This document shows positions 2,003 through 30,347 of a DNA stretch of 30,358 nucleotides, piece after piece. Source of the stretch: a virus; the IMG/VR virus record IMGVR_UViG_3300028800_000252, positions 1-30,358 of that record; one strand, given 5' to 3'. The position numbers and the translations under genes were made by a program. The notes beneath the pieces are model-generated. The model saw only the letters and a list, made by a program, of their open reading frames with translations. It did no database searches and was not told the DNA's origin. The first letter of the stretch is position 1. Each line of letters begins with the position of its first letter.

Positions 2003-5000
2003 CTAGCGGACGTTGACGGTCGGGACGTTCACCGTCGGTACGTTGACCGAGGGGACGTTCACGGTCGGGATGCCGACGGCCGGACCGGCAGCGCTCGCTC
2101 TTCCCTTCGTGACCGCGAACGGGTTCAGCACTCTCACGAGTCTCTGCCCGAGCGACCCTCTCGCCGCGGCGAACTGCGCGGCCTTGCCGTAGACCGGAAC
2201 CTCACCCTCGGCAAGCTGCTGCACCCCGTACTTGAACAGCTGGAGCTGGTCGTACGGCGTCCCGTCGGCGTTCTTCAGCGCTCTCCCCTTCCAGTCGCGG
2301 CCCTGGAACGCGGCCTGCACGCCGCTGAGCTGCGGCAGCACGAGGCCGGCGACCGTGTCGAGCGGCTGGCTGGCGAACCCGAACGGCGTGTAGCGGCCGA
2401 TGCGGAGGTGGCCGCCGCCGGCCGTCGGGATCGAGCCCTGCAGGAAGCTGGGAAGGCCGCGGCTGCCCTGGAAGAGGTCGAGGCCGTGCTGCTTGCGCCA
2501 CTGCTCGGAGGCGACATGCGCGTCGGCGAGCAGCGCGGTCAGCACCGGATGGTCGGCCGGCAGGACGTGGTAGAGGAATCTCACGGCGTTCAGCGACCAG
2601 GACGCGAACGGCGTGTAGAGCGCGATCGCCTTCCGCAACGCCGGCGAGAACGAGCTGTACTGGCCGTAGGCACGCTGCACCGCGCGGGCCATCGCGATCT
2701 GCTCGGGCGTGTTTCTCAGCCCGTCGGCGGCCTGCTGGACCGCTCTGCGGCTCGCGATCACCTCGGCGTTGCTGAGCCCGAACCGCTGGCGCATGTGGCG
2801 GCCAGCCATCGCGAGCTGCGCGGGCGCCTCCAGGTTGTCGTTGACCTTCGTGAAGACGAGGTGCGTGTAGCCCTGCCAGAGGTTCGCGAGGTTGCGCGGG
2901 CCACGCGCCTGCCAGAACGCTCCGGCCGCGCGCGCGAGGTTCGCGAGCGGCGGCGATGCGTCTCTGAACTGGTCGGCGGCCGTGCGCACGGTTCTGCCCG
3001 CGAAGGCGTAGTGGCCGCCGGGCTTGGCGGCGATCCGCGCGCTGAGAGCGGCCTCGGGGTCCGTCGCGTCCATGTGGGCGAACACTCTGCGCGCGAACAG
3101 CGCGTCCATCGGCGTCGCGCGGTTGATCGCCGCGCGCGTGCCGGCCTCGATGACGTTGCCGGCCAGCCACGTCGGCGACGTCGCGAGCACCGTTCTGCGG
3201 AACGCGCCCGTGGCGAGACGGAACAGCTTGCCGCCGCCGCCAGCACCGAGGACGCTGACGTGCTCGCGCAGACGATCCGCCGCCGGCTTCGGGACGAGGG
3301 TGTAGGGGCCTTCGCCGTCGCCACGGACAGCGGCGTCGAGGATGTCCGAGAGCGACTGCTGTGCGTGCCCCTCCGGGGTCGAGCCGTCGATCATCCCGGC
3401 GACATCCTCGACTCTGCCCTTCCACGGCGCCGTGCGGACGATCTGCCAGCCCTGCGATCCCGGGAGCGCGGAGGCGTCCCGCGCGGCCTGCTCGGCCGCG
3501 GCGCGCGTGTCGAAGCTCGCGAGTCTCCCGTCGTGACGGAGACCGAACTGGTCGAGGAAGCGACCGAAGCCCTCGTGGGCATCGACGAGGCCCTGCATCC
3601 GCGCGACCTGCTCGACCATCGTCTCGGGGTGCGCGTCGAACGTGCCCTTCACCGTCGCCTCGCCCGTGCGGGTCGCGCTGCCCACACCACCGGGGTTGGA
3701 CCAGTGCCGGTAGAAGTTGCCGGGCCCGCGACGGTTCGGCGCCTGCGTGACGAACGACGGCTCGCCGTGCCCGAGGTGCTCCATCGCCGTCGCGATGTCC
3801 GCATTCGAGGCGTCGCGCATGCCCATGCGGGCGGCGAACGGGATCAGCTTGGCACGCTCGGCACGCGCGGCCGGCAGGATCCCGGCGTCGTCGAGCTTCT
3901 TCTCGAGCTGCTGCATCAGCGGCGCGTAGTGCTGCTGCACGAGCGCCGGCACATCGGCCGGGTTGAACTTCCCCTTCGCGGCGTTCGCGATCGATCTGTC
4001 GAGGCCGGCGCGCAGCGCGATGTTCGCCTTCGCCTCCGCCGGCGAGAGCGCCCCCGAGGCGTGCACGCGCGCGAGATCGTCCCGGTACGCCTGGAGATCT
4101 TCGAGCGTCGGCTTCACGATCCCCTGCGCGATCGGCGAGATCGCGTGCCCGGCCGCCTTCGCCTGCTTGATGAGGAGCTGCGGCGCTCTGACGACCTCGG
4201 CGCGGTGCGCGGACTGGATGCCCTGGTTGGACCCTTCGAGGTGGTCGACGAGCTTCGCGACGGCGTGCGGCTTGAGCACGTCCGGGTTCATCGACGCTGC
4301 CTCGTGGCGCAGCTCGTCGGCGCGCTGCTGGAGGTGCGCGGCGTTCGCCGGATCGTGCGCGGCCTGCGCTTCGAGCTGCGCCGCCTGCGTCGCCATGTCG
4401 GCGGCCGCTATGCGCGCACGGCTGGCGCGAAGCACCTGCACGCCCTTCACGAGCGGGTCGCGGCTCCACGAGCGCGCCTGCGCGACGTTCGTGCCCGGGA
4501 CGACCGCGGGCGCGCGCTCGGTCGAGAAGGCGCCGATCCCGGCGCGTCGACCGGCCTCGCCGACCGCCCCCGCAACGCCGCGCACGGGTCCGGCGACCAT
4601 GAGCGCCGTGTCGAGCGGATGCTGCTGGAGGCTGCGCACGGGGTGCTTCGCGAGGTCGATGTACGGCTGCGCGAGCATTCTCGCCGCGGCGCCGACATGG
4701 CCGGATGCCGCCTCGGACGCCGGCAGGTAGGCCGACGGGATGACCTCGGCCGGGAGGTTCACGGCGTCCTTGAGGAAGTTGACGCCGACCTGGCCGCCGT
4801 TGAAGCCGGCCGTCTGCGGCTGGAGGCCCTTCGAGCCGAGCACGCCGGACTGCTGGCCGCGATCGACCGCCTTCCCGAGCGTCGAGGACACCCCGGAGAG
4901 CAGCTGCTGCAGCTGGCCGGCGCGCGCGAGGTCGGGATGCTGGAAGGCGCCCAGCGTTCCCTGGTAGCCGGACGGGTTCGAGAGCGCCGTCCCGATCTCC

Positions 5001-6852: not shown

Positions 6853-7695
6853 CTATCTCCCGGTGTTGGCGACGTAGCGGCCGGGGCCGCGGTAGCGGGC
6901 GGAGTGGCCGACGACGTGAACGTTCGGATTGTTCGGACCGGCGCCTGCGTAGAGGCCGGGGCCGGTGTAGGCCGTCGAGTGCCCCTGCGCACGCGGGACG
7001 CCGAGCGCGTCCGTCGCGGCCGCCGGCATCGGCGGTGCGGTGAGCGCAGCCGATGCCGCCGCTCTGTTTGCCCGCTCGATCGACGCGAGTCGCGCAGCGA
7101 GCTCGGAGTACGGCAGGTTCGCCTGAACGCCCTGGATCTGCGACTGCCGTCCCGCTTCGCGCTGCGCGAAGCCCTGGTTCTGGTTCGCCTCCGTCGTGAG
7201 CAGCGCAGTCTTCATGTTGCCGATCTGGTTGCCGAGCGCCCCGGAGTAGAGGAGGCCCTGCCCATTGGCGGTGTTCGTCGCGTTCTGCTCGAGCACGGGC
7301 TCTCTCTGTTCGAGCTGGCGCTGTGCCTCGGCGAGCGCGATTCTGTCGTAGGCGCTCTGCTGGTTGATCGCGTTTTCCTTCTGGCCGGCCTGGAAGTTCG
7401 CCTGGTTCACCTGCGCCCAATACGTCGCGTCGAGCGGTGACGGCTGCTGCGCCGGCTGGGCCGGGGCTGCCGGGTTCGGCGGCGGCGCGATCGTCGTGCC
7501 GGCGAGCGCCGCCGGCGGCCGGGTGCCGGGCGAGAGGTTCGTTCCGGCCGGCTTCCCCTTCGGAATCCCCGTCGATGCACGCGGCGGCTTCGGGATCACG
7601 AGGACCGGCTTGGACGTGCGAGGCGCCCGGGCGCCACCGTTGAACGGTTGCGGCGCACGCGGGGCCTGCATTGCTGCTCCACCGTTGAAGGCCAT
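6853..7695 (-). CDS. Pro/Ala/Gln-rich virion protein, 280 aa
   Basis: The ATG at 7693-7695 has AGGAG 5 nt upstream, which overlaps the previous stop (TAGGAG). The first 100 residues are disordered, Pro/Ala/Gly-rich and contain FNGGA twice. Residues ~100-220 are Gln/Ala/Glu-rich helix. The C-terminal 45 residues hold an internal duplication: GHSTAYTGPGLY then GHSARYRGPGRY. It is the first of three internal-virion-type genes after the collar gene. No family is recognised, and the assignment rests on position and composition. Confidence 0.7.
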   Translation of the reverse strand: MAFNGGAAMQAPRAPQPFNGGARAPRTSKPVLVIPKPPRASTGIPKGKPAGTNLSPGTRPPAALAGTTIAPPPNPAAPAQPAQQPSPLDATYWAQVNQANFQAGQKENAINQQSAYDRIALAEAQRQLEQREPVLEQNATNTANGQGLLYSGALGNQIGNMKTALLTTEANQNQGFAQREAGRQSQIQGVQANLPYSELAARLASIERANRAAASAALTAPPMPAAATDALGVPRAQGHSTAYTGPGLYAGAGPNNPNVHVVGHSARYRGPGRYVANTGR

Positions 7696-7704
7696 GGCGT
7701 GCTC

Positions 7705-8322
7705 CTACGTCTTGATGAGGAAGTTGACCGCGACGGACGGCTGCATGTTGTTGTGCGCGCCGCCGCCGCCCTGCGAACCGATCGAGTGCTCGTGCGCGAA
7801 GTCCTGGTACTTGCGCGAGTCGCCGCCGATCAGGTTGCCGCCCCAGGTGATCCCGACGAAGTTCGTGGCGCCGCCTGAGCTGTAGACGTTCGTGTTGGGG
7901 TAGCCGCTGTCGCCGCCGGTCGAGCCACCGTGGTTGTGCGACGGCATCTCGGGAACGCTCAGCGTGTGAGCCTCTTCACCGACCTGTGCAGCGAGAGCGC
8001 GTGCCGTCAGGCCCGATCCGGTGCCAGCCCCGATCGGCCCACGGCCGCGGAAGTCGGGAAGGTTGAACGTCGTCGAGCCATCGCCCGGTCCCCATGGTGA
8101 CGAGCCGCCGCCGAGCGCGGTGAACAGCGTGCCGTAGGTCGCGCGCGAGACGGTGCGGCCGTCGCACAGCAGCCAGCCGGTGGGCTCGGAGCCTACAGTG
8201 ATCGCAGCGGCGGTCGGCTTGAGGTCGCCGGGGTCGTAGAGGAGATCGAGCAGTTTCGCGAGCGCGTCGAAGTTGTCCTGGGCGTCGAGGAGTTGCGTCA
8301 GGACCGGATGGGGGAGTGACAT
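7705..8322 (-). CDS. Phage tail collar domain protein (short tail fibre)
   Basis: 205 residues, with ATG at 8320-8322 and GGAGGT just upstream. The sequence shows the collar-domain hallmark: GWLLCDGRTVSRATYGTLF, then GDGSTTFNLPDFRGR (about residues 48-95). A Gly/Ser/His-rich part follows (MPSHNHGGSTGG, HEHSIGSQGGGG). It ends with the usual HNNMQPSVAVNFLIKT. The family includes short tail fibre tips and microcystin-dependent-type proteins, which bind the cell surface or anchor fibres. The preceding minus-strand gene ends at 8877 and a plus-strand gene lies between, so expression needs read-through or a local promoter. Confidence 0.93.
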   Translation of the reverse strand: MSLPHPVLTQLLDAQDNFDALAKLLDLLYDPGDLKPTAAAITVGSEPTGWLLCDGRTVSRATYGTLFTALGGGSSPWGPGDGSTTFNLPDFRGRGPIGAGTGSGLTARALAAQVGEEAHTLSVPEMPSHNHGGSTGGDSGYPNTNVYSSGGATNFVGITWGGNLIGGDSRKYQDFAHEHSIGSQGGGGAHNNMQPSVAVNFLIKT

Positions 8323-8370
8323 CGCACCTCCAAGTTGTGCTCCAATGCCCCGTGCGATAGACGTTGCCGG
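8323..8370. promoter_or_regulatory. Short divergent intergenic region
   Basis: 48 bp between the divergent starts of the collar gene (minus) and the metallopeptidase-like gene (plus). It holds GGAGGT for the minus gene. I see no convincing -35/-10 pair in either direction and no clear Shine-Dalgarno for the plus gene. It is the only place between the two genes where a separate promoter could sit. Confidence 0.35.
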
Positions 8371-8880
8371 ATGCGCAGCATCCTCATCCTGCTTGCGACG
8401 TGTCTCGTAGCCTCAGCCGCCCCAGGCGATTCAGCGGGCGCCGTGCTCATCACGCCGACCGGGGCGCACCTCTCGGTGAACCTCATACGCGCCGAGTGCC
8501 CCTACACCGGCCACACGAGCTGTACCGCGGTCGACGGGCGCACCATCTGGCTCGAACCCCGACTCGGCTCCCTGTACCGCCCGATCCTCGTCCACGAGGA
8601 GGCACATGCCCTCAGCGGGCAAGGGCTCGTGAGCGCCGCCGTCAGAGCCCGCTTCATGCAGCTCGGCGGCTACACCGGCGACTGGTATGCGGACCGTGGG
8701 CCGTCGCTCGCGGGCGACCCGACGTCGCTCGAGGAGCTTTTCGCCGAGGCGTACTCCTACTGCGGCACGACGCCGCGCGCCGACTATCGCTATGACGAGC
8801 CCTTCGGCGAGTACGGCTGGGATCCGCCACGCAAGCAGCGCGTGCAGACGTGCGACGCCTTCTACCGCCGGCTGCGCTAG
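8371..8880 (+). CDS. Secreted HExxH metallopeptidase-like protein, opposite-strand gene
   Basis: 169 residues from the ATG at 8371. A TTG at 8335 would add 12 residues before the signal sequence and is rejected. Residues 1-17 (MRSILILLATCLVASAA) form a clean signal peptide with an ASA-type cleavage site. H75-E-E-A-H79 is a zincin motif. SLEELFAEAY (119-128) offers a third zinc ligand at Glu122 or Glu126, as in HExxH...E gluzincin-type proteins. Cys43, 51, 131 and 161 could form two disulfides in an oxidising compartment. It is the only plus-strand gene, sits antisense inside the virion operon, and its stop shares CTAG with the convergent gene. The substrate is unknown. A moron-type role (host envelope change or surface protein cleavage) is inference. 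Confidence 0.72.
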   Translation: MRSILILLATCLVASAAPGDSAGAVLITPTGAHLSVNLIRAECPYTGHTSCTAVDGRTIWLEPRLGSLYRPILVHEEAHALSGQGLVSAAVRARFMQLGGYTGDWYADRGPSLAGDPTSLEELFAEAYSYCGTTPRADYRYDEPFGEYGWDPPRKQRVQTCDAFYRRLR

Positions 8881-9389
8881 AGCGTCTCCTCACACCGGAC
8901 GGTGCAGGTCGGCAGGACGCCGCCCCCCGCGTTGCTGCCGACGAACCGATACGCCTTGTTCGCCGGCACGAGGAACGTCACACAAAAGGTCTGCTGCCAG
9001 GAGGCCGAGACGGTCGTCGTCGTGCTCATCCCGACCGTGCCGACGGTCGAATAGCTGTCGATCGACACCACGGCGGTCGACCCGCCGCCCCCGCCGCCGC
9101 TGCTGGTTATGGCGCAGACGAACTCGAGGGTGACGAGCGTCGGACGTCTGGTGTTCGGCGTGCGGGGCGTGTTGTTGGCGAGCGCGCCGGGCGACGTGAC
9201 GGCGCTCGGCGCGGTCGCGTAGTCGGTGGCGAGCTGCCCCGGCGTGATGCCGGCTGTGGGCGACAGGTTGTTCGTGTCGATGTTGCCGTTGAGCAGGGCC
9301 TGGAGTGCGGTGAAGTCGGAGGCGACCTTTGCCTCCTCGGTCGCGTCGGACTGGCCGAGCTGCGGGACCTGCAAGGCGATCGTGCCCAT
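8877..9389 (-). CDS. Tail fibre-like structural protein, 170 aa
   Basis: The ATG at 9387-9389 lies one base after the nozzle gene stop, with AAGGA upstream. The N-terminus (residues ~1-40, DATEEAKVASDFTALQALLNGNIDTNNLSP) resembles the particle-binding N-termini of many phage fibre proteins that end in NGNID.NNL. A Thr/Pro-rich segment follows, then a six-Gly linker. The beta-rich C-terminal domain contains VSASWQQTFCVTFLVPANKAY and three cysteines. Gene order (adaptor, nozzle, this, collar protein) fits a fibre or fibre-attachment role. No exact family is recognised. The stop codon CTA at 8877-8879 overlaps the stop of the convergent plus-strand gene. Confidence 0.7.
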   Translation of the reverse strand: MGTIALQVPQLGQSDATEEAKVASDFTALQALLNGNIDTNNLSPTAGITPGQLATDYATAPSAVTSPGALANNTPRTPNTRRPTLVTLEFVCAITSSGGGGGGSTAVVSIDSYSTVGTVGMSTTTTVSASWQQTFCVTFLVPANKAYRFVGSNAGGGVLPTCTVRCEETL

Positions 9390-9390
9390 G

Positions 9391-10884
9391 TCAGTCCTTC
9401 CGGTCCTGGATCAGCAAGGTCATGGAGTAGACGGCTGCGGCGCTCGACGACGTGGCGCCGAAGACGGGCGAGAACGCCCGCGCGACGCCGAGCGAGCCGA
9501 TGCGCGCCAGCGGGACGGTCGGGCCGCCGCCGAACGTGGAGGCCGGGTCGCCGAACGTGCCTGATCCGCCGAACGTGTCGGCCGGGTCGCTGGCGAAGAT
9601 GCCCGAGACGACGAGCTGCTCGGAAGCGGTGAAGTCCTTCGCGACCGAGAAGTCGACGACGCCCTGGCCGTCAACACGAACGTCGCGCAGGCGCTTGCGG
9701 TAGTAGGGCGTCGGGAAGCGTCGCCGGCGGTAGAAGGCGGGCGAGAGCCACGGCCCCTTCCAGTACCAGGTGAAGTTCGAGCCGTTGTCCGTGCTGATGC
9801 CGGGGACGAAGCATTGATCGACGAGCGCGGCGGTCGCCTTCGCGGAGTACAGCCCCGGGTTGTTCGCCGAGGGGTGCCACACCTGCCACTGGTTCGAGCC
9901 GATCCCGTGCAGCCACCAGCTTCCGAGCGTCAGGTCGTAGTCGAGCGTGAGCGTGTTTCTCGTGCCGTCGGTCGAGTACGAGAGGAAGTAGTGGTTATTC
10001 CAGAACGCGGCGGCGGGCGGGACGGCGAGGGATGCCGCCGCGAGGTTCGGCGTCACGGGGTCGGACACAAGTTCGAGCGTCGAGCCGTTTGTACGCCACA
10101 CGCCGCGCTCGGAGAGGAAGAACGTCCCTTGCGGGCTCTCCGCTATCGAGCGATGGGAGACGCAGCCGATCGAGTCGCTGATGCGACGGTTCTCTCCGGT
10201 CGCGGGGTTGAAGACGGCGAAGACCTTGTGGCGCTTGAAGACGAGCAGCAGGTTGCCGGCCTTGCCGAGTCCGGTGATCGCGTCGCCGTCGTTCGGGTCG
10301 AGGTCGATGACGTTCGCCGCAGGCCAGTTGCGCGCGTCGGTGCCGGTGCCCGCGGCGATGTTGCACCAGCAGAGCCGCGACGGGTTGCCGGCGACGCCCG
10401 CGACGAACAGGTAGTTCTGGTGCAGCACGATGTATCTGCCGTTCGGCAGCGTGCCCGAGCTGGCCGTCCAGTCCGAGGTCGTTCTCGCGGCGCCGTCCCA
10501 CTGCTGCGGCGTGTCGACGCCGTTGAGGCCGAAGATCGGACCCTGGCCGCCGGAGACCTGCGTCTGCGCCCACTCCCAGCGGTTCGAGCTGCTCAGCCCC
10601 GTCTTGAGCGTCGAGATCGCGCCGGCAGCCGTGATGCCGAACAGCGACGTGCCGGCGTGCGTGATCAGGACCGGCGACGCGGGCGCCTCGGCGGCGTACA
10701 GCGAGTCGAGGACCGAGGCCGGGGTCGCGAAGGTCACGATGCCGTCGCGCTTGACGATCGCGCGCGCCGTCGTCGACTGGACGTTCAGCACGTCGCGCGC
10801 CTCGTTGTCCTCGAGCACGTACGGCGCGCCCTTCGTGTTGAGCCCTCCTCCGAAGTCGGAGTAGAGCATCGGCTGGCCGCGCAT
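9391..10884 (-). CDS. Tail nozzle / tail tubular protein B-like, 497 aa
   Basis: The ATG at 10882-10884 abuts the previous TAG. A second Met five codons later is an alternative start. The sequence opens with DFGGGLNTKGAPYVLEDNEARDVLNV, typical of gp10 (P22) and gp12 (T7) nozzle-type proteins, in which a beta-propeller forms the distal end of a short tail. Repeated beta blades are visible: RYIVLHQNYLFVAG, NLLLVFKRHKVFAVF, GTFFLSERGVW, NHYFLSYSTDG. The C-terminus has three similar ...FGG.../TFGG segments (DTFGGSGTFGDPASTFGGG). Its place after the adaptor-like gene is exactly that of the family. Its presence is a main reason for calling a short-tailed virion. Confidence 0.82.
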   Translation of the reverse strand: MRGQPMLYSDFGGGLNTKGAPYVLEDNEARDVLNVQSTTARAIVKRDGIVTFATPASVLDSLYAAEAPASPVLITHAGTSLFGITAAGAISTLKTGLSSSNRWEWAQTQVSGGQGPIFGLNGVDTPQQWDGAARTTSDWTASSGTLPNGRYIVLHQNYLFVAGVAGNPSRLCWCNIAAGTGTDARNWPAANVIDLDPNDGDAITGLGKAGNLLLVFKRHKVFAVFNPATGENRRISDSIGCVSHRSIAESPQGTFFLSERGVWRTNGSTLELVSDPVTPNLAAASLAVPPAAAFWNNHYFLSYSTDGTRNTLTLDYDLTLGSWWLHGIGSNQWQVWHPSANNPGLYSAKATAALVDQCFVPGISTDNGSNFTWYWKGPWLSPAFYRRRRFPTPYYRKRLRDVRVDGQGVVDFSVAKDFTASEQLVVSGIFASDPADTFGGSGTFGDPASTFGGGPTVPLARIGSLGVARAFSPVFGATSSSAAAVYSMTLLIQDRKD

Positions 10885-11523
10885 CTACGGCAGCCCCCAT
10901 GCCGCGCTGCCGTCGCTGTCGTCCCACATGCTCGGGACCTGTCGCGGCCCGTCGGTCGAGGGGAACTTCACGTCGACCGCCATGTCGCGCAACGCGGCGG
11001 CCCACTGCCCCTGCCAGTACTGCGCCATCTCGCTGTCGTCCTCGCACTCGTAGCAGCGCTGGAGCGCGTAGTAGGCGAGGAGGCGGTGGTAGTCGGCCGG
11101 GAGCGACGGTGTGTCGCCGTCGGCTGCCAGTAGCGCCGGGAGCTGCCAGTAGCGCAGCGCGAGGTTGTAGACCGCGTCGGGGGTCGGGTAGAGCACGAGC
11201 GTCGCGCCCGCGAGCGCGTACGAGGCCGGTCGTCCGCTGACCGCGGCCGAGGTCTCGATGCTGCGGATCGGAACGAGCTCGAGCGTCTGCGTCAGGTCGA
11301 CGTCGCGCAGGTAGCGCAGCTTCGCGAAGTCCGTCGGCCACGGGTACGCGGCCTGACCGGCGACGGTCGTGATCGACTGCACCGTCTCGTCCTGGTAGTA
11401 GTCGACCTTGCGGGCTGCGAGCCGCAGCGCCTCGTTCAGGTAGCTGGTGGCGCGCGAGACGTAGACGTTCGCCGCGAAGCCGTGGTTGTAGACCTCGGTG
11501 CGCAGCTCCGCGAGCGTGCTCAC
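10885..11523 (-). CDS. Head-to-tail adaptor / tail tubular protein A-like, 212 aa
   Basis: The GTG at 11521-11523 overlaps the upstream TGA (GTGA). The TAG at 10885 abuts the nozzle gene start. The sequence TLAELRTEVYNHGF...YLNEALRLAARKVDYYQDETVQSITTVAGQAAYPWP shows the helical start and the beta 'tva gqa.YplP' motif of gp4/gp11-type adaptors. ALAGATLVLYPTPDAVYNLALRYWQLPALL and PADYHRLLAYYALQRCYE complete the typical pattern. The protein should ring the portal and receive the nozzle protein encoded next. The gene pair is a strong marker of podovirus-like tails. Confidence 0.82.
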   Translation of the reverse strand: MSTLAELRTEVYNHGFAANVYVSRATSYLNEALRLAARKVDYYQDETVQSITTVAGQAAYPWPTDFAKLRYLRDVDLTQTLELVPIRSIETSAAVSGRPASYALAGATLVLYPTPDAVYNLALRYWQLPALLAADGDTPSLPADYHRLLAYYALQRCYECEDDSEMAQYWQGQWAAALRDMAVDVKFPSTDGPRQVPSMWDDSDGSAAWGLP

Positions 11524-11945
11524 GGCACGAAGATCCTTGCCTTGTCGAGTCCGAGGTCCTTCCGGGCGGCGTGCGCGGCGCGGTCGCCCTCAGCGCGGAT
11601 GCGGTCGCGCAGCTCGGCCTTGCTGTCGCGCTCGCGCTGCGCGCGGCGACGCTCGCTGTCGGCCACGAAGTCGTAGTCGGGTGACGCGATCTCCCGCACC
11701 CGGTTCACGACGCGCTGGTCGAGTTCGAGCGCGGTGAGCACGAGATGATCGACGACTCTGCCGTCGGGCGACTCGATGTGCTGGTAGACCACGAAGTGTC
11801 TGCCGCGCTCCGAGTAGCGCACGCGCAGCGTCGGGTCGATCGCCCGCAGATCGCGGACGACCATCCCGACGTCGGACGGGACCTCATAGGTGCGTCCGTC
11901 GGCCCCTTCGATGACCTGCGCGAGCGTCGCCGCTTCGAGCTCCAT
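11520..11945 (-). CDS. Phage connector-region protein, 141 aa, unknown
   Basis: The ATG at 11943-11945 shares its base with the upstream TAA (TAATG). The first 85 residues look like a small alpha/beta fold (GMVVRDLRAIDPTLRVRYSERGRHFVVYQHI) with conserved-looking aromatic and Arg positions. The rest is a highly charged helix rich in Arg/Glu/Asp (DSERRRAQRERDSKAELRDRIRAEGDRAAHAARKDL in the last third). It lies between the small capsid-associated protein and the adaptor gene, so a head-completion or assembly role is plausible. No family is named with confidence. Confidence 0.75.
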   Translation of the reverse strand: MELEAATLAQVIEGADGRTYEVPSDVGMVVRDLRAIDPTLRVRYSERGRHFVVYQHIESPDGRVVDHLVLTALELDQRVVNRVREIASPDYDFVADSERRRAQRERDSKAELRDRIRAEGDRAAHAARKDLGLDKARIFVP

Positions 11946-12253
11946 TAGATGTTGCCGGCACCCTTGCCGTGCACGACGATCCGCGTCGTGAGCGTGTGCA
12001 GGTCGGTCGCGTTCGCGACCTCGGAGGCGCCCGAAAATGCCTTGAGCTTCGAATTCGCGTAGTCGTACGCGAACGTGTGGCCGTCGGTCGACGGCGTGGG
12101 GATGACCGCCCGCAGGGAGGTGCCCATGCCGAGCTGCGCGGCGGTGAGCGCCAGGCCGCCGGTCGTGTAGCTGGCGTCGAACGTCACGTCGGCGATGACC
12201 TCGCGGTGGTCGCCGATGACGTACGAACTGACGCGCGTAATCGAGAGCGCCAT
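11945..12253 (-). CDS. Small capsid-associated structural protein, 102 aa
   Basis: The ATG at 12251-12253 is the first gene after the capsid gene, separated from it by a strong hairpin. The pattern SITRVSSYVIGDHREVIADVTFDASYTTGG, then LGMGTSLRAVIPTP and DYANSKLKAF, matches a small beta-rich protein commonly found directly downstream of major capsid genes in many uncultured phages. A capsid decoration or head-surface role is the usual suspicion but is not proven. It is coupled by TAATG to the next gene. Confidence 0.8.
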   Translation of the reverse strand: MALSITRVSSYVIGDHREVIADVTFDASYTTGGLALTAAQLGMGTSLRAVIPTPSTDGHTFAYDYANSKLKAFSGASEVANATDLHTLTTRIVVHGKGAGNI

Positions 12254-12293
12254 GCTGGCTCCTTACGTCGAGAGGAAGAGGAGGGTGCGGGGG

Positions 12294-12325
12294 CGCTGGC
12301 CGGCCCTTCGCGGGGCCGGCCAGCG
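12294..12325 (-). terminator. Perfect 13-bp GC-rich hairpin after the capsid gene
   Basis: Arms cgctggccggccc (12294-12306) and gggccggccagcg (12313-12325) are perfectly complementary around a 6-nt loop. It lies 12 nt past the capsid stop and 41 nt before the next start. There is no T-run after it on the minus strand. It may therefore be a partial terminator or mRNA-stabilising stem that sets high capsid expression relative to downstream genes. Confidence 0.8.
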
Positions 12326-12336
12326 TGCCGCTGCTA

Positions 12337-13599
12337 CTAGATCCGCGCGACCGGGATGTCGTCGAGGAGCTGCGTGACCTTGCAGTTGGCGTTCGGGCGC
12401 ACGCACACCAGCGTCGCGTACCAGCCGAAGAACGCCTGCCAGGTCGCGTTGAACGTGCCGGCCGTCGCGCCCGGCGTGAGGTGCCAGATGCCGCCCTCGC
12501 CGTCCGGCGCCTGGAGCCAGTCGGGGCTCCCCATCTGCGCCCAGTTGAACGTGTCCTTGCGCAGCCCGTACGCCTCGCCGTTGACGGCGTCGGCGTCGGC
12601 GACGACCGGGATCGGCTTGCCGCCGGCGGACAGCATGATCGCGTCGTAGCCGCCGTTGACTCTCACCGCGTTCGCGTCGGTGAAGCGCTTCATCGACTGG
12701 TACTGAAGCGCGAGCCGGCGCTGGATGCCGTAGGAGGCGACGTACAGGTCGATCGGCTTGCCGCGCTGCGCGGTCAGCTGCGCCTGCTGCATGAGCGTGT
12801 CCTCGTTCACGTTCACCCAGCCGGCCGCGTTCGTGTTGGCGTCCCAGATCGGGTTCACCGACGAGTCGATCGAGTGCAGCGAGCGGCTCGTCGAGATGAT
12901 GTTCCGCAGGCCGTCGGACTCGTTGCCGCGATCGCCGGCGATGTAGATGCCGTCGGCGTTCGTGACGGAAACCGAGCTCGCGAGCGTGACGTTGGCGTTC
13001 GCCTGCGACGAGGTGGCGGCCGTGCCGGTGAACGCGACCGCGGTGACGAGCACGCCCTGGCCCTTGACGGTGCCGTCGGCGCGCGTGAGCACGTCGACCG
13101 TGTCGCCGACCGCGATGTACTGGCCGTTGTCGACGGCGATCGTTCTCGCCGACTGCGTCGAGGTGCAGCTCGCGAGCAGACCGTCACCGGTCCCGTACGC
13201 CATGCGCGTGATGTCCTTGCGCAGGTCGGTCGTGGCGCCGTCGATCTCGACCTCGAGGGCTCTCACGAACGCGCCCTCGTTCGTCGCCGAGGCACGGAAC
13301 AGCTGGTCGTCCAGCTGGATCGTGGTGAAGAGGTTCTTGATCGACACGATGCCGTCGAGGAAGCCCTGGCGCCCGGCGGTCGGGAGCTGGCCTCCGCTGG
13401 TGACCGCTCCGCGGCCACGGTTGCGCGAGGTGTGCACCGGGAAGACGAGCCGGCGGCCGGTGTAGGCCCCCATCTGGTTCGCCTCCTGGCGCTCGAGCTG
13501 ATCGATCAGGTAGGTGTCCTGGTTGAGCTGCTCGACCGCGGGACCGCGGTAGACGTCCTTGAGCATGGCGTCGAATGCCGCCATCGTCTGTCCGGCCAT
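12337..13599 (-). CDS. Major capsid protein (HK97-fold type)
   Basis: 420 residues from the ATG at 13597-13599, which has AAGGAG about 6 nt upstream. The open frame continues upstream but has no ribosome site there. Features fit phage major capsid proteins. An N-arm (AFDAMLKDVYRGPAVEQLNQDTYLIDQL) is followed by GRRLVFPVHTSRNRG, which leads into the E-loop region. Next come a spine helix (EGAFVRALEVEIDGATTDLRKDITRMAYGTGDGLLA region) and the late P-domain strand QAFFGWYATLVCVRPNANCKVTQLLDD. The preceding gene is a scaffold candidate and the following one a small structural protein, the standard order. Several arginines use AGA even in this presumably highly expressed gene. Confidence 0.92.
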   Translation of the reverse strand: MAGQTMAAFDAMLKDVYRGPAVEQLNQDTYLIDQLERQEANQMGAYTGRRLVFPVHTSRNRGRGAVTSGGQLPTAGRQGFLDGIVSIKNLFTTIQLDDQLFRASATNEGAFVRALEVEIDGATTDLRKDITRMAYGTGDGLLASCTSTQSARTIAVDNGQYIAVGDTVDVLTRADGTVKGQGVLVTAVAFTGTAATSSQANANVTLASSVSVTNADGIYIAGDRGNESDGLRNIISTSRSLHSIDSSVNPIWDANTNAAGWVNVNEDTLMQQAQLTAQRGKPIDLYVASYGIQRRLALQYQSMKRFTDANAVRVNGGYDAIMLSAGGKPIPVVADADAVNGEAYGLRKDTFNWAQMGSPDWLQAPDGEGGIWHLTPGATAGTFNATWQAFFGWYATLVCVRPNANCKVTQLLDDIPVARI

Positions 13600-14903: not shown

Positions 14904-15535
14904 CAGCGGCCGCCGAATTCGGCAGGCCGGATGTCCGCGTAGGGGACCGTGAGCAGCTCGCCGGTGTTGCGGAGTCTCACGTTCACCGTCTCGGGCCAGC
15001 CGTCGGCGCCGTTGGAGGCGACCGACTCGAAGACGCCGATCTCGCCGGCGTGGTCGCCGCTCTCGATCCGGGCGAACGAGCCGGGGAGCACGTCGCTGTC
15101 GTTGCGGCGGTTGTACTGCGTCACGACGATCGTCGTCACGGTCTGCACGACGAAGCCGTCGGGGACGTCCGCCGGGGCCTCGGCCGGCGCGGGGGACGAC
15201 TCCTCGGCCGCCGGCGCGGGGTCGGCAGGTGCCGCGCCGTTCGCCGCCGGCGCGGTGGTGGCCAGCGAGTCCGGCGCGGACTCGCTGGCCGGCGCCTGCG
15301 CGGGGTTGGGGTCGGTCGGCGGCTGAGCGTCGGCGGGCGGCGGGGCGTCCGGTGCCGCAGAAGCCGGCGGTGCGGCCGCAGGGGCCGCGTCAGCGGGCGC
15401 GGGAGCCGGGTCGGGCGCGGGCGGTGCCTCCGCGGGCGGCTGGGCGGCGGGGTCGGCCGTCTCCGGTGCCGGCGCTACTGCCGCCGCGGCGGCGGGATCG
15501 GTCGCGACCGGGGTCGCGTCTTCGGGGCTGCCCAT
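14903..15535 (-). CDS. Ala/Pro-rich protein with C-terminal SH3/KOW-like domain, 210 aa
   Basis: The ATG at 15533-15535 has AAGGAG 8 nt upstream. The first ~130 residues are almost only Ala, Pro, Asp, Glu, Ser and Thr (low complexity, probably disordered). The last ~75 residues form a compact beta-type domain: FVVQTVTTIVVTQYNRRN, then SFARIESGDHAGEIGVFESV, then ETVNVRLRNTGELLTVPYADIRPAE. The G.hAGeiG...v...v.v....L.vp..di pattern resembles KOW/SH3-like barrels. It is translationally coupled to the 89-aa gene. The role is unknown; a long disordered arm on a small barrel would suit a virion surface or assembly tether. Confidence 0.75.
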   Translation of the reverse strand: MGSPEDATPVATDPAAAAAVAPAPETADPAAQPPAEAPPAPDPAPAPADAAPAAAPPASAAPDAPPPADAQPPTDPNPAQAPASESAPDSLATTAPAANGAAPADPAPAAEESSPAPAEAPADVPDGFVVQTVTTIVVTQYNRRNDSDVLPGSFARIESGDHAGEIGVFESVASNGADGWPETVNVRLRNTGELLTVPYADIRPAEFGGR

Positions 15536-20257: not shown

Positions 20258-20412
20258 CGCGGGGGCACCCCCGCCTTCTCCTCGGCGGTCGACGCGAGCT
20301 GCGCTTCGGCGGCGCGGATCAGCCACGCGGTGCGCGACTCTTCGCCGCGCGCAGCGTCGATCCGCTCGAGCAGCACCAGCGGCAGTCGGAAGTTCACGAT
20401 CGGGGTCGCCAT
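20254..20412 (-). CDS. Ribbon-helix-helix DNA-binding protein, 52 aa
   Basis: The ATG at 20410-20412 overlaps the glycosidase stop (ATGA), and its own TGA overlaps the terminase GTG (GTGA), so the three genes are translationally coupled. The pattern TPIVNFRLPLVLLERIDAA (strand, then first helix) followed by ESRTAWLIRAAEAQLAS (second helix) is a textbook Arc/MetJ/CopG-type ribbon-helix-helix. Such proteins bind DNA as dimers through a paired beta ribbon. Directly before the large subunit it may act as DNA-recognition partner (small-terminase analogue) or as a local repressor. Neither role is shown by sequence alone. Confidence 0.85.
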   Translation of the reverse strand: MATPIVNFRLPLVLLERIDAARGEESRTAWLIRAAEAQLASTAEEKAGVPPR

Positions 20413-21965
20413 CAGCCGCGGACCGGGATGCGCGCCGGCCGTCGCGCGGGAAGACGGACGGGACGACGCGGAGACGACGCGACGATCGGCAGGGCCGGAC
20501 TGATCGCCTGGGCGGCGACGATGACCGCGGTGCTGACGGTCTGCGAGCCGGTCAGGGCAGCGGTAGTCGTGCCTGCCACGGCGATCGGGTCTTCGGCCCA
20601 GCCAGCAGTCGGCGCGCCCGTCGAGGAACCGTCGAGGATTGTCGGCATGTCGGCCGGCGGGGTGATGACGCTCGGGGCATCGGTGACCGCCCACCACAAC
20701 GCGCGAGCGCGATCGACGGTCGACGTGAGTCTCGGTCCGGTGACGGTTCTCGATGCGGCCGAGGCGACGTCGCCTTCGGCGTCGACGATTCTGCTCGTGT
20801 TCACGGTTGAGCCGACGAGCGCGACGATCGTCGCGGCGCGGTAGCGGCTCGCGCCGCCCCACGTGATCGTGTGCGTCGCCGCGCCGTCGACCGCTGCGAC
20901 ACGCTCGAAGACGGCGAAGTTGAAGCTCGAGAACAGGTCTCTGCGCTCCGTCCAGCCGGCCATCTGGATGTCGACGTCGGCACCAGTGACGTACACGCCA
21001 CACAGCAGCGCGTCGCCGGCTCTCGTCTCGGCCGGCTGCGACGCGGCGAGGGTCGTGCCGGTCGAGCCGCCGGATGCAATCTGGCCCCGCACCTCGACGC
21101 GCTGAGTCGGCACGTAGGCGAGCAGCGCGGTGAGCGCAGCGCCGATCGCCGGCTTCGTGGTCGTGTCGCGCAGCAGGTAGCCGAAGTTCTGCTCGCGGTC
21201 TGTGGGATCGGTGCCCGCGTCGATCATCCCGAACCAGAACAGCCGCTCAACCGAGGGGCATTCCTCGGCGATCCGCTCGATGACCTTCGTCGCGTCGGCG
21301 GCCGCCTGCGCGTAGGTGAGGTTGACCGCGCGGCCGTAGTTGCCGTCGGAGTTCGTGAAGGCCGTTCCGCCTGAGGTCGACACCCCGAACTCCGTCAGCC
21401 AGTACGGGAAGTTCGTTGGGCAGCCGTGTGCGGCGGCCTGCGAGATCCCCGTCTGGATCCGGTCGACTTCCTCGTGCGCGAAGTAGGGATGGCAGCACCA
21501 TGCCCGCACGTAGCTGTGCAGGTTCGGCACCGCGGCGTACATCGCGTCGACCCACGTTGACCCGGCCCAGAGCGCGTAGTCGTTCTGGGCGATGATCCCG
21601 ACTCTGGTCAGGCCGACAGCGTCCAGCGCCGAGCGCAGCGCGGCGATGGCTCTGGCGTAGTTGCCGGCCTTCGTTCTCAGCGTCGTGGTGTTGTTGCCGT
21701 TCTTGTAGCTGTAGCTGTCCTCGTTGCCCAGCTCGACGTTCGTGAGCGTCGGGTATCTCTGGAGCGTTGCGACGATCGTCGCGGGGGCCGTCGTCCAGTC
21801 CTCGACGAGTAGGTGCACGTCTACGCCGAGTCTTCCGTGCGCGGCGACCGCATCGCCGACCGGCCACGCATCCGAGAGTCGCGCACAGCGGAACGGGAAC
21901 GCGGCGTACGCGGTGGGGATGATCGCGGGCCAGCCCGACTGGCCCTCGGTCCCGAGCAGAAACAT
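20412..21965 (-). CDS. GH-A-clan glycosidase with C-terminal beta domain: probable tailspike/depolymerase
   Basis: 517 residues from the ATG at 21963-21965. The N-terminal ~290 residues look like a (beta/alpha)8 glycosidase. VELGNE gives the Asn-Glu pair after strand 4 (acid/base Glu82). CHPYF (157-162) fits the strand-6 His/Tyr. YWLTEFGVS gives a nucleophile Glu192 after strand 7, a normal spacing for clan GH-A. LFWFGMIDAG fits the strand-8 Trp. Residues ~300-490 are Thr/Ala-rich beta strands (AGDALLCGVYVTGADVD), as in phage and secreted carbohydrate-binding modules. The end is basic (RRPVRLPARRPARIPVRG). There is no signal peptide. Its place among virion genes suggests a particle-bound enzyme degrading host surface glycan. 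The substrate cannot be told. Confidence 0.8.
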   Translation of the reverse strand: MFLLGTEGQSGWPAIIPTAYAAFPFRCARLSDAWPVGDAVAAHGRLGVDVHLLVEDWTTAPATIVATLQRYPTLTNVELGNEDSYSYKNGNNTTTLRTKAGNYARAIAALRSALDAVGLTRVGIIAQNDYALWAGSTWVDAMYAAVPNLHSYVRAWCCHPYFAHEEVDRIQTGISQAAAHGCPTNFPYWLTEFGVSTSGGTAFTNSDGNYGRAVNLTYAQAAADATKVIERIAEECPSVERLFWFGMIDAGTDPTDREQNFGYLLRDTTTKPAIGAALTALLAYVPTQRVEVRGQIASGGSTGTTLAASQPAETRAGDALLCGVYVTGADVDIQMAGWTERRDLFSSFNFAVFERVAAVDGAATHTITWGGASRYRAATIVALVGSTVNTSRIVDAEGDVASAASRTVTGPRLTSTVDRARALWWAVTDAPSVITPPADMPTILDGSSTGAPTAGWAEDPIAVAGTTTAALTGSQTVSTAVIVAAQAISPALPIVASSPRRPVRLPARRPARIPVRG

Positions 21966-22369: not shown

Positions 22370-22686
22370 GACGGCCTCCGTTCCCGATTGAAGTCGAGGC
22401 CGGGCACACGCCCGACCGATGAGTGACACCGGGCCCACCCGGGCGCCGCCGCCCGCTGAGCCTGCCGCGTCGATCGCGATAGGAGACGGCGGACAACCCG
22501 AGAGGACCCGCTCGCACCGGCTGAAGGCCAGAGGCCCACGCCGACGCGAGAAGGATCGCTGGCTCAGCGCAACCCGCTCGACGGGAACGGATCGCTCCGC
22601 CGCGCCCACCGCCCGTGCGGCAGTTCAACGCGGCTGGCCCGAAACGCGCCGTAGGCGCCCCGAGGTCTTCCTGCTGGCCAGCGAAA
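22370..22686. other. 317-bp non-coding leader between tRNA-Gln and first virion gene
   Basis: No frame with a ribosome site is found besides the Shine-Dalgarno of the 132-aa gene. There are several GC-rich dyads, e.g. ccgggcccacccgg near 22429-22442, that could act as attenuator stems. No clear promoter is seen. The tRNA and virion genes may be one transcript with this as a long 5' leader. Confidence 0.5.
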
Positions 22687-22757
22687 TCCAGGGGGAGGAC
22701 TCGAACCTCCGCTACGGCGTCCAGAGCGCCGCGTCCTGCCAACTAGACCACCCTGGA
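22687..22757 (-). tRNA. tRNA-Gln(CTG)
   Basis: 71 nt on the minus strand. Acceptor TCCAGGG/CCCTGGA, D-stem GTCT/GGAC (one G·U), anticodon stem CGGCG/CGCCG with loop CTCTGGA (anticodon CTG, reads CAG), T-stem GGAGG/CCTCC with loop TTCGAGT. No encoded CCA. It sits at the head of the virion block, whose scaffold, portal C-terminus and internal proteins are glutamine-rich. Confidence 0.95.
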
Positions 22758-26555: not shown

Positions 26556-27391
26556 GCGGCCGCCCCGGTCATGGCGTCGACGAGGTCGCCAGCAGACGTT
26601 GCCGAGCGCGCCGCAGCGAACGGCGCGACGCCCTGCCGCTGCATCTTGCCCACGATGCGATCGACGCCACGGCGAAGGGCAGAAGGCGAGAGCACGACAG
26701 AGCGCTCGAAGTCGTCGGCCTGCGTCCAGCCGATCATCGCTCTGACCTCCGCCGGCTCGTAGCCGTCGCGGTCGAGCAGCAGCCGGATCGGGTCGAGCCA
26801 CGCTCTCGATCTCGGCGAGACGCGGGCCCTCGGGTTGTTCGCCTGCATCGCTCTGGCGAGCTGCTCGGCGAGCACGACGATGACGGAGTCGCGGAGGCGC
26901 TTCTCGAGCAGCTCGTCGCGATCTTCGTCGGGAACCGTCGACGGAGAAGACTGCGAAGCAGGCTTCTCCTTCTCTCGTGCTGTTCTCTCCCCTTTAAAGG
27001 TTCTGGGTCGGCGGGATCTGCCCCGACCCATCGGTGCAGATTGCCCCGACCCATCGGTGCAATTTGCACCGACCCCTTCGAGGGCTTCGACGCGCTCGTA
27101 GACGACCCGGTAGCGCGACTCGCGCCCCTGCGCCGTCGCGACCACCTCGGCCTCGACCAGCCCAAGCGTTCGGAGCTGGCTCAGCGCCCGCTTGATCGTG
27201 TCCTCGTGCCAGAACGGGAACTCGGCCTTCCACGCCTTCCGTGGCCGCTGGACCCAGCCGTCCGCGCAGCTCGCTTCGAGCGACCGGAAGTGGATCTGCT
27301 GCAGCACGATCGCCTCGTTGAGGCCAATCACCAGGGCGAGCGACGGCAGGACGATGAGCGGCGGCTCGCGCAGGAGCAGGCTGGCGCTCAT
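26552..27391 (-). CDS. Phage replication initiator / helicase loader (DnaD- or O-like), 279 aa
   Basis: The ATG at 27389-27391 overlaps the previous TGA (ATGA). Residues ~20-95 hold a winged-helix module: LNEAIVLQQIHFRS, then WVQRPRKAWKAEFPFWHEDTIKRALSQLRTLGLVEAE. This pattern is well known from phage replisome organisers. The middle (about 100-155) is polar and low in structure, and its DNA carries the iteron-like repeats. The C-terminal ~100 residues are helical (LRDSVIVVLAEQLARAMQANN, then PAEVRAMIGW) and may contact the DnaB helicase encoded next. Initiator, internal origin and helicase together mirror lambda O/ori/P logic. Confidence 0.85.
   Translation of the reverse strand: MSASLLLREPPLIVLPSLALVIGLNEAIVLQQIHFRSLEASCADGWVQRPRKAWKAEFPFWHEDTIKRALSQLRTLGLVEAEVVATAQGRESRYRVVYERVEALEGVGANCTDGSGQSAPMGRGRSRRPRTFKGERTAREKEKPASQSSPSTVPDEDRDELLEKRLRDSVIVVLAEQLARAMQANNPRARVSPRSRAWLDPIRLLLDRDGYEPAEVRAMIGWTQADDFERSVVLSPSALRRGVDRIVGKMQRQGVAPFAAARSATSAGDLVDAMTGAAA
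26991..27076. other. Candidate replication origin: 23-bp iterons plus AT-rich palindrome inside the initiator gene
   Basis: Two identical 20-mers (tgccccgacccatcggtgca) begin at 27019 and 27042. A degenerate third copy (tgcaccgacccc) starts in phase at 27065, so the period is 23 bp. An inverted piece tgggtcgg (27004-27011) faces ccgaccca. cggtgca-att-tgcaccg (27056-27072) is a dyad. The 10-bp palindrome cctttaaagg (26991-27000) is unusually AT-rich for the window. The 23-bp period is not a multiple of three, so the DNA, not the peptide, is what repeats. Confidence 0.75.
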
Positions 27392-27840
27392 CGTGCCCCC
27401 GACTGCTGTCGGGCAGGCAGGGCGCCGGCGAGGTGATGCTCGGCGATCTGGCGTGCGGCCTCGGGGGTCGCGGCAGTGTGCGCTCGCAGCATCGCCGCGA
27501 CCGCCTCGACCGCTCTACCGAACGCGATCTGCCGGCCGCTCCTGCTCGTGCGTCTGGTGGCGTTTGTACGGCTGGTACGACCCCGCGTAGCCCGCTGGGG
27601 CGCATACCCCTTCGGCAGCCGTCTATTCTCCCAGCGCCAGCGCGTGACACGACACGTCCCCGAGCAGCACTCCGCATTCTCTCTCGGCCTCGCCGCCATC
27701 GGACCCCTGCACCACGCGCACGCCTGACGCTCGGCCAGCACGCAACCATCGGCGTGTCTCATCGGCGACGGTGGCTCGACGGTCGCGTACACGACCGCCT
27801 GGCAACCCGCGCACTGGCTCAGCACCCGCGGAACGCTCAC
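27388..27840 (-). CDS. Cys-rich zinc-finger protein, 150 aa
   Basis: The GTG at 27838-27840 overlaps the previous TGA (GTGA), and the stop overlaps the initiator ATG. Two zinc modules are visible: Cys10-x2-Cys13 with Cys33, and Cys41-x2-Cys44 with CCSGTC (58-63). The latter is followed by RVTRWRWENRRLPKG, a finger style common in small phage proteins. A basic Arg/Thr stretch (80-105) and a helical C-terminus follow. It is likely a nucleic-acid-binding early protein. The function is not recognised. Confidence 0.75.
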   Translation of the reverse strand: MSVPRVLSQCAGCQAVVYATVEPPSPMRHADGCVLAERQACAWCRGPMAARPRENAECCSGTCRVTRWRWENRRLPKGYAPQRATRGRTSRTNATRRTSRSGRQIAFGRAVEAVAAMLRAHTAATPEAARQIAEHHLAGALPARQQSGAR

Positions 27841-30174: not shown

Positions 30175-30186
30175 GCGGTTGCCAGT

Positions 30187-30259
30187 CGGGGAGACAGGAT
30201 TTGAACCTGCGACCGCCCGGCCCCCAGCCGGGTGCGCTACCAGACTGCGCCACTCCCCG
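30187..30259 (-). tRNA. tRNA-Pro(GGG)
   Basis: 73 nt on the minus strand. Acceptor CGGGGAG/CTCCCCG, D-stem GCGC/GCGC, anticodon stem CCCGG/CCGGG with loop CTGGGGG (anticodon GGG, reads CCC/CCU), T-stem GCAGG/CCTGT with loop TTCAAAT. No encoded CCA. Confidence 0.96.
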
Positions 30260-30277
30260 TGGTGCTATGTGCCGAGA

Positions 30278-30347
30278 GCGGGCGACGGGAATCGAACCCG
30301 CCCTAGAAGCTTGGAAGGCTTCTGTGCAGCCACAACACTTCGCCCGC
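30278..30347 (-). tRNA. tRNA-Gly(TCC)
   Basis: 70 nt on the minus strand. Acceptor GCGGGCG/CGCCCGC, D-stem GTGT/GCAC, anticodon stem GAAGC/GCTTC with loop CTTCCAA (anticodon TCC, reads GGA/GGG), T-stem GCGGG/CCCGT with loop TTCGATT. It lies 18 bp upstream of tRNA-Pro, probably co-transcribed. Confidence 0.95.

Follow-up and report, generated by a model that had tools for sequence, protein, structure and literature searches.

The viral DNA analysed here (the window, an IMG/VR record, 30,358 bp in full) carries a gene at 8371–8880 on the plus strand for a protein with a secretion signal and a conserved zinc-protease site. The gene lies antisense in the virion operon, in a slot that recurs in related phages and whose cargo is exchanged between them. 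It is very probably a cargo gene for a secreted zincin. Our overall reading, to which we give a probability of about 0.45, is that the position is a moron slot amid the tail-tip genes, that its product in the window is an exported protease altering the host envelope, and that superinfection exclusion is the main gain. The timing of expression, the substrate and the exclusion of superinfecting phages are the parts of this reading that we infer.

The reading frame starts with an ATG at 8371, ends with a TAG at 8878–8880 and encodes P0001, a protein of 169 amino acids. It is the sole convincing plus-strand gene of the window, in agreement with an earlier interpretation made without database searches (the sequence-only reading). 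Simple gene calling returned two further plus-strand candidates, at 14949–15326 and 27041–27436, but both are shadow ORFs. In each case the opposite strand holds a conserved gene with homologues, and the window genes are therefore on the minus strand except for the zincin gene. A promoter for the zincin gene would have to fit into the 48-bp gap (8323–8370) between its start and that of the divergent collar gene; a consensus scan restricted to promoters of the sigma-70 type and a terminator scan both came back empty. Anti-phage defence models gave no match.

The N terminus of P0001 resembles a signal peptide (MRSILILLATCLVASAAPGDSAGA). The corresponding region of ∼22 amino acids (8371–8436) has a basic start, a hydrophobic core and an A-x-A-like end; for P0001 and for the other slot proteins described below, signal peptides were called by hydrophobicity rules, without a trained predictor. 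No convincing lipobox was apparent on reading the P0001 sequence. One cysteine, C11, falls within the signal peptide, and the mature part contains four others, which are presumed to form two disulphides, C43 to C51 (8497–8523) and C131 to C161 (8761–8853). The HEEAH motif occupies residues 75–79 (8593–8607), with H75 and H79 as predicted zinc ligands and E76 as the predicted catalytic residue. It is followed by EELFAEAY at residues 121–128 (8731–8754), in which E122 is the predicted third zinc ligand. The translated ORF confirms the signal-peptide-like N terminus, HEEAH motif and four cysteines listed in the sequence-only reading. The metzincin signature HExxHxxGxxH is absent from P0001, whose site reads HEEAHALSGQG.

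Searches with the single P0001 sequence returned nothing convincing in Pfam, PHROGs, NCBIfam, the PDB, phages, plasmids or viral and genome contigs. Matches to Pseudomonas phages (E of 0.1 or worse) were rejected, as they covered the N-terminal part only and missed the active site. Because P0001 alone is too divergent, its family (family A) surfaced only through synteny and codon patterns. Family A comprises 13 phage sequences: the window protein and that of locus L021, linked by synteny, and 11 phage-encoded members from two codon-pattern scans. Genome scans yielded no cellular relatives. Residues C43, C51, H75, E76, H79, R92, W105, E122, F124, A125, Y128, C131 and C161 are invariant in all 13 sequences; HExxH and FA[DE].Y were set by the search pattern for the 11, which left E122, R92, W105 and the cysteines free, and R92 and a few other positions hinge on the alignment. 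The His and Glu positions of the putative zinc site, then, do not vary among the homologues.

A profile of family A matched PPEP-1/Zmp1 in the PDB (E = 0.0012), aligning HEEAH with HETAH of PPEP-1 and E122 with the second Glu of the PPEP motif EEFFAE. In PPEPs that Glu serves as the third ligand of the zinc (PMC12828418). The third Glu ligand that the sequence-only reading had thought plausible corresponds to E122. AlphaFold prediction with the 13 sequences gave a pLDDT of 81.1 and a pTM of 0.79, compared with a pLDDT of 34.8 for a two-sequence input. HEEAH lies within helix 66–83 of the predicted model and E122 within helix 120–133. The best structural matches in VIA are all ATLF/PPEP structures, above IrrE and neprilysin types, with Z scores of 5.5–6.4 in a range (Z < 8) that can be unspecific. 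PPEP-1 itself aligns over 120 residues with Z 5.8, an rmsd of 3.9 and 16% identity. Foldseek alone gave no significant match for the model (E above 0.5). The zincin identity proposed earlier is thus borne out by the invariant H75, E76, H79 and E122, by the PPEP-1 profile match and by a confident model whose predicted fold ranks ATLF/PPEP first.

As judged from sequence and model, P0001 is predicted to be a zinc endopeptidase, small and secreted, that resembles the ATLF/PPEP group. Its site would be of the gluzincin type (zinc ligands H75, H79 and E122; E76 as base). The ATLF group includes a toxin domain; nothing in this analysis suggests a toxin role for the phage zincin. PPEP/ATLF-like domains, which we take to be MEROPS family M34, share with family A an HExxH motif and a third-ligand Glu in an (E)E-x-F-A-E motif. 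The likeness extends to PPEP-1/Zmp1, PPEP-2 and PPEP-3 as small secreted zincins in which HExxH is followed by a Glu two residues before FAE. The window family differs from them in having four invariant cysteines, in being phage-encoded and in the catalytic Tyr: no Tyr between H79 and E122 is conserved in the 13 sequences, so that PPEP-1 Y178 has no conserved counterpart by alignment. For this reason we use the term PPEP-like for the window zincin and do not count it among the PPEPs, a class whose feature is cleavage between two prolines.

The sequence-only reading had placed the gene between fibre-like and collar genes, and PHROG, Pfam and domain matches of the neighbours agree with a tail-tip/fibre-like setting. 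On the divergent side lies a tail collar-domain protein (7705–8322, minus strand; Pfam Collar, 1.6e-14; PHROG tail protein). On the convergent side lies a tail-tip-like protein of 170 amino acids (8877–9389, minus strand; PHROG virion structural protein, 5e-4), whose N-terminal domain recurs in the proteins encoded next to the cargo of L036 and L047. CTAG at 8877–8880 belongs to both convergent stop codons, giving a 4-bp overlap. Next comes a 497-amino-acid head-closure-like virion protein (9391–10884, minus strand; PHROG matches), whose homologues in relatives provide the syntenic anchor for locating the slot. We define the slot as the position directly after the gene that follows this homologue.

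Relatives of the window were gathered by scanning with capsid and head-closure profiles. Contig G003 (46.7 kb), related to the window through terminase (40%), portal (44%) and capsid (45%), has at the matching point an antisense gene for a secreted protein with HEVGHLLGYSH. An antisense secreted ORF occupies the slot in nine podovirus-like phages (the window, G003, L016, L017, L021, L034, L036, L047 and L050). In eight of the nine the stop overlap is exactly 4 bp (CTAG or TTAG), and in L021 it is 26 bp. A control over 28 loci (412 kb) contained 52 antisense secreted-like ORFs; six slot ORFs had the 4-bp overlap, against none of the ORFs outside the slot (at least 44), L021 being the slot ORF without the overlap and L047 and L050 having it but failing the strict filter. 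The recurrent slot with its conserved 4-bp stop overlap, present in several phage types, goes beyond what the sequence-only reading had claimed.

The control also shows that long secreted-like antisense ORFs are frequent in high-GC DNA, which might suggest that 8371–8880 is a spurious or decaying frame shadowing a virion gene. We consider the chance of this negligible and reject a shadow ORF on codon bias, position and conservation. The overlap with the neighbour is just 4 bp, and the codon-position GC of the frame (66.5/54.7/87.1%) resembles that of the remaining window genes. A chance ORF is excluded because 12 relatives keep the active site and the cysteines and because other phages have a gene in this antisense position as well.

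The slot is empty in at least L019, L025, L032, L033 and L048. The cargo is thus present between syntenic virion genes in nine phages and absent there in at least five, as is typical of a moron. Lambda-type morons such as lom and bor are likewise extra envelope-protein genes between virion genes, found in some phages only; they are not proteases, unlike the predicted window zincin, and we know of none in a conserved antisense position marked by a 4-bp overlap of the stops. Among the closest cultured phages in portal and capsid (∼25–28% identity) are Arthrobacter phage Jasmine, Microbacterium phage Shocker and Cellulosimicrobium phage DS1, and from their hosts we conclude that the host of the window phage probably belongs to Actinomycetota. 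No minus-strand gene was found among the virion genes in the annotated records of Jasmine and Shocker.

The proposal that the zincin gene is cargo fits the variety of slot contents, since relatives have a zincin, lack one or hold an unrelated secreted protein at this position. Family-A zincins occupy the slot in the window and L021, and metzincins with HExxHxxGxxH (family B) occupy it in G003, L034 and L047, accompanied in G003 and L047 by a Met-turn. The profile of the slot metzincins matches matrixins weakly. Small secreted proteins without HExxH are the cargo in L016, L017, L036 and L050; with four of nine slots carrying non-zincins, proteolysis is not the only business of the slot. Comparison of families A and B with hhalign matched only 26 columns around HExxH, which gives no support for homology past the zincin core; the two families are apparently unrelated. 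G003 and L021 have similar signal peptides, yet the former encodes a metzincin and the latter a family-A zincin. The signal-peptide regions of L021 and L016 are 88% identical over 42 bp, and their mature proteins differ. From these alignments it looks as if the mature part has been exchanged behind a kept start.

Several slots have additional genes upstream of the cargo. In G003 (L014:15127–15264) and L021 (upstream of 10011) the antisense cargo is immediately preceded by a gene for a small protein with a single membrane segment. These copies are orthologous, with 75% identity over 117 bp, and in both the stop codon overlaps the cargo start (GTGA/ATGA). Other small proteins with one membrane segment, not orthologous to the G003/L021 copies, precede the cargo in L034 (upstream of 8020) and L017 (10223–10573), the stop of the latter overlapping the cargo start by 1 bp. 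In L017 the slot gene has above it a longer antisense operon (10226–11102) encoding a membrane protein, a secreted protein of 110 amino acids and a protein of 69 amino acids; the match of the membrane protein to ribosome modulation factor (7e-5) stays below threshold.

Membrane proteins of this kind, in G003, L021, L034 and L017, might suit a lysis module, in which the zincin, made late or at induction, would cut wall-associated proteins and ease holin/endolysin lysis. There is a parallel in Listeria, where a secreted metzincin, Mtz, encoded with the TIMP-like partner Tim in prophages near holin-lysin genes, sensitises to phage lysins and is not reported to lie in an antisense slot (PMC8235301). 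Mtz resembles the window zincin as a phage-associated secreted zincin but, as a metzincin, stands outside its family, the metzincins of our set being those of G003, L034 and L047. A role in lysis is the main rival of our reading, yet one that we regard as unlikely, given that the zincin gene is antisense to the late operon, that the cargo of four relatives lacks HExxH, and that the window has a probable lysis region elsewhere (848–1984 and 1–363, both minus strand).

The arrangement is not confined to relatives of the window. Eight of the 13 family-A genes are antisense to and convergent with an adjoining or nearly adjoining virion-type gene (the window, L021, G030, L070, L071, L076, L077 and L093); those of G029, L081 and L087 are co-directional with their neighbours, and those of L086 and L088 could not be placed clearly in either group. 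Among the eight are unrelated sipho- and myovirus-type contigs with the zincin antisense beside tail genes. G030 is a siphovirus with an HK97-type capsid, a tape measure and a Dit-like protein, and the window portal has no match in it. Its zincin gene is embedded among tail genes of the minus strand and shares CTAG, 4 bp, with its neighbour. In L070, L071 and L076 the zincin gene, next to baseplate or tail genes, likewise overlaps by 4 bp; that of L093 abuts its neighbour and that of L077 is a few bp away. In a family-A tree the zincins of the window and L021 never come together, L021 joining L070, L071 and L076 with support of 94/98 in an otherwise weak tree; this suggests separate acquisitions.

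An SCxEAR-like motif characterises a secreted domain that is found in these phages both alone and fused to a family-A zincin, with opposite domain order in G029 and L076. It was located in L066 (G029) at 6893–7273, 9308–10363, 11608–11967 and 11972–12418, and in L076 at 2880–3686. These arrangements point to domain shuffling among phage-secreted proteins.

A C-terminal domain of ∼150 amino acids is common to the cargo-abutting proteins of 11 phages, and one member matches a minor tail protein (2e-4). A convergent secreted gene is present in all seven domain-bearing loci fetched via capsid or head-closure genes; the further cases L070, L071, L076 and L093 were retrieved with the zincin pattern, hence are not independent. 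Other tip domains are present in the window, L050, G030 and L077. Among 50,697 deposited phage genomes, nothing matched convincingly either to the shared C-terminal domain (query L034) or to family A (query L071). From the weak tail-protein matches and the position we infer that the cargo-abutting protein is an adhesin. A bolder proposal, which we find doubtful, is that the tail-tip domain and the convergent secreted effector, joined through the 4-bp shared stop, form a mobile adsorption module of Actinomycetota phages. Non-homologous secreted zinc proteases would then be exchanged within it to destroy the phage's own receptor protein, and the module would have spread over podo-, sipho- and myovirus types. 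Influenza neuraminidase, which destroys its own sugar receptor, offers a parallel.

On our preferred reading the zincin would be moron-type cargo, placed antisense in the tail-tip cluster of an Actinomycetota phage, its expression probably being separate from that of the late operon. After export by Sec it would cleave proteins on the host surface, in the manner of PPEP-1, which is reported to strip adhesion proteins from the cell surface (PMC11460543). Action on host surface proteins is, in our judgement, probable. The likeliest gain would be that the receptor of the neighbouring tail-tip protein is removed or altered, and loss of the receptor would block superinfection and keep progeny off dead cells. 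Superinfection exclusion as the main role is a more tentative assignment, for which we would give less than even odds.

Phages T5 and BF23 provide the best precedent. In T5, llp is adjacent to the receptor-binding gene oad on the opposite strand, and its product blocks the receptor; BF23 Llp is non-homologous but alike in function. These superinfection-exclusion proteins and the related Cor lipoproteins are, like the slot proteins, exported cargo that is non-homologous between phages. Theirs is encoded opposite to an adjacent receptor-binding gene, and the window zincin gene is antisense to and adjoins tail-tip-like genes (weak tail-protein matches) whose products may bind a receptor. In contrast to the window zincin, a predicted protease, Llp is a lipoprotein that blocks the receptor without cutting, and llp of these E. 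coli phages is divergent from oad, whereas the zincin gene is convergent with a 4-bp overlap. This precedent, together with the stripping of adhesion proteins by PPEP-1, is why we favour host-surface cleavage with superinfection exclusion. Host-surface-changing genes beside receptor-binding genes are known in coliphages, and little is known of them in Actinomycetota phages. The antisense, exchangeable secreted genes beside tail-tip genes suggest a shared way of remodelling the infected-cell surface.

The same location would also suit an enzyme carried by the virion, either packaged or bound to the tail tip, that digests surface proteins at adsorption; enzymes on phage tail tips are common. We consider this highly improbable, as a Sec-type signal peptide and Cys pairs fit export, not cytoplasmic assembly, and the gene is on the strand opposite to all virion genes.

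Alternatively, the benefit may fall to the host: a lysogen would secrete the protease and shed its own surface proteins, digest polymers or attack competitors or their peptides. Tyrosine integrases are encoded in G003, G007, G012 and G025 (the records of G003, L016, L021 and L034), all of which bear cargo, and the cargo-free records tested have no PF00589 match. None was detected in G006, G010, G016, G020, G026, G027 or the window record, which may be a fragment. G027 is the record of L036 and bears cargo, and G023, which lacks cargo, encodes a serine recombinase. The swapping of unrelated secreted proteins in one slot and the several kinds of secreted protein in G029 would also fit lysogenic conversion. 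However, the temperate link comes from few, partly incomplete records, and a benefit to the host leaves the tail-tip-cluster location across different phage types unexplained; we judge it rather unlikely.

If surface cleavage by the slot proteases includes the receptors, their substrates would point to the receptors of these phages. Surface effectors of uncultured phages may be flagged by a simple rule: an ORF for a secreted protein that runs convergent to a preceding tail-tip gene, with stop codons overlapping by 4 bp.

Further features of the window lie on its minus strand. The product of 848–1984, for which Pfam and PHROGs gave no family match, contains M15-like motifs (HNRMTVDGNVSDHW..DHHNHVHIG), and the neighbour at 1–363 has a C-terminal membrane segment. 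Beside the terminase gene, 20412–21965 encodes a protein of 517 amino acids with a match to a glycosyl hydrolase catalytic core (4e-5), and this region is also present on contig G001 at nearly 100% identity. Three tRNA genes, for Gln(ctg), Pro(ggg) and Gly(tcc), are located at 22686–22757, 30185–30259 and 30276–30347, respectively.
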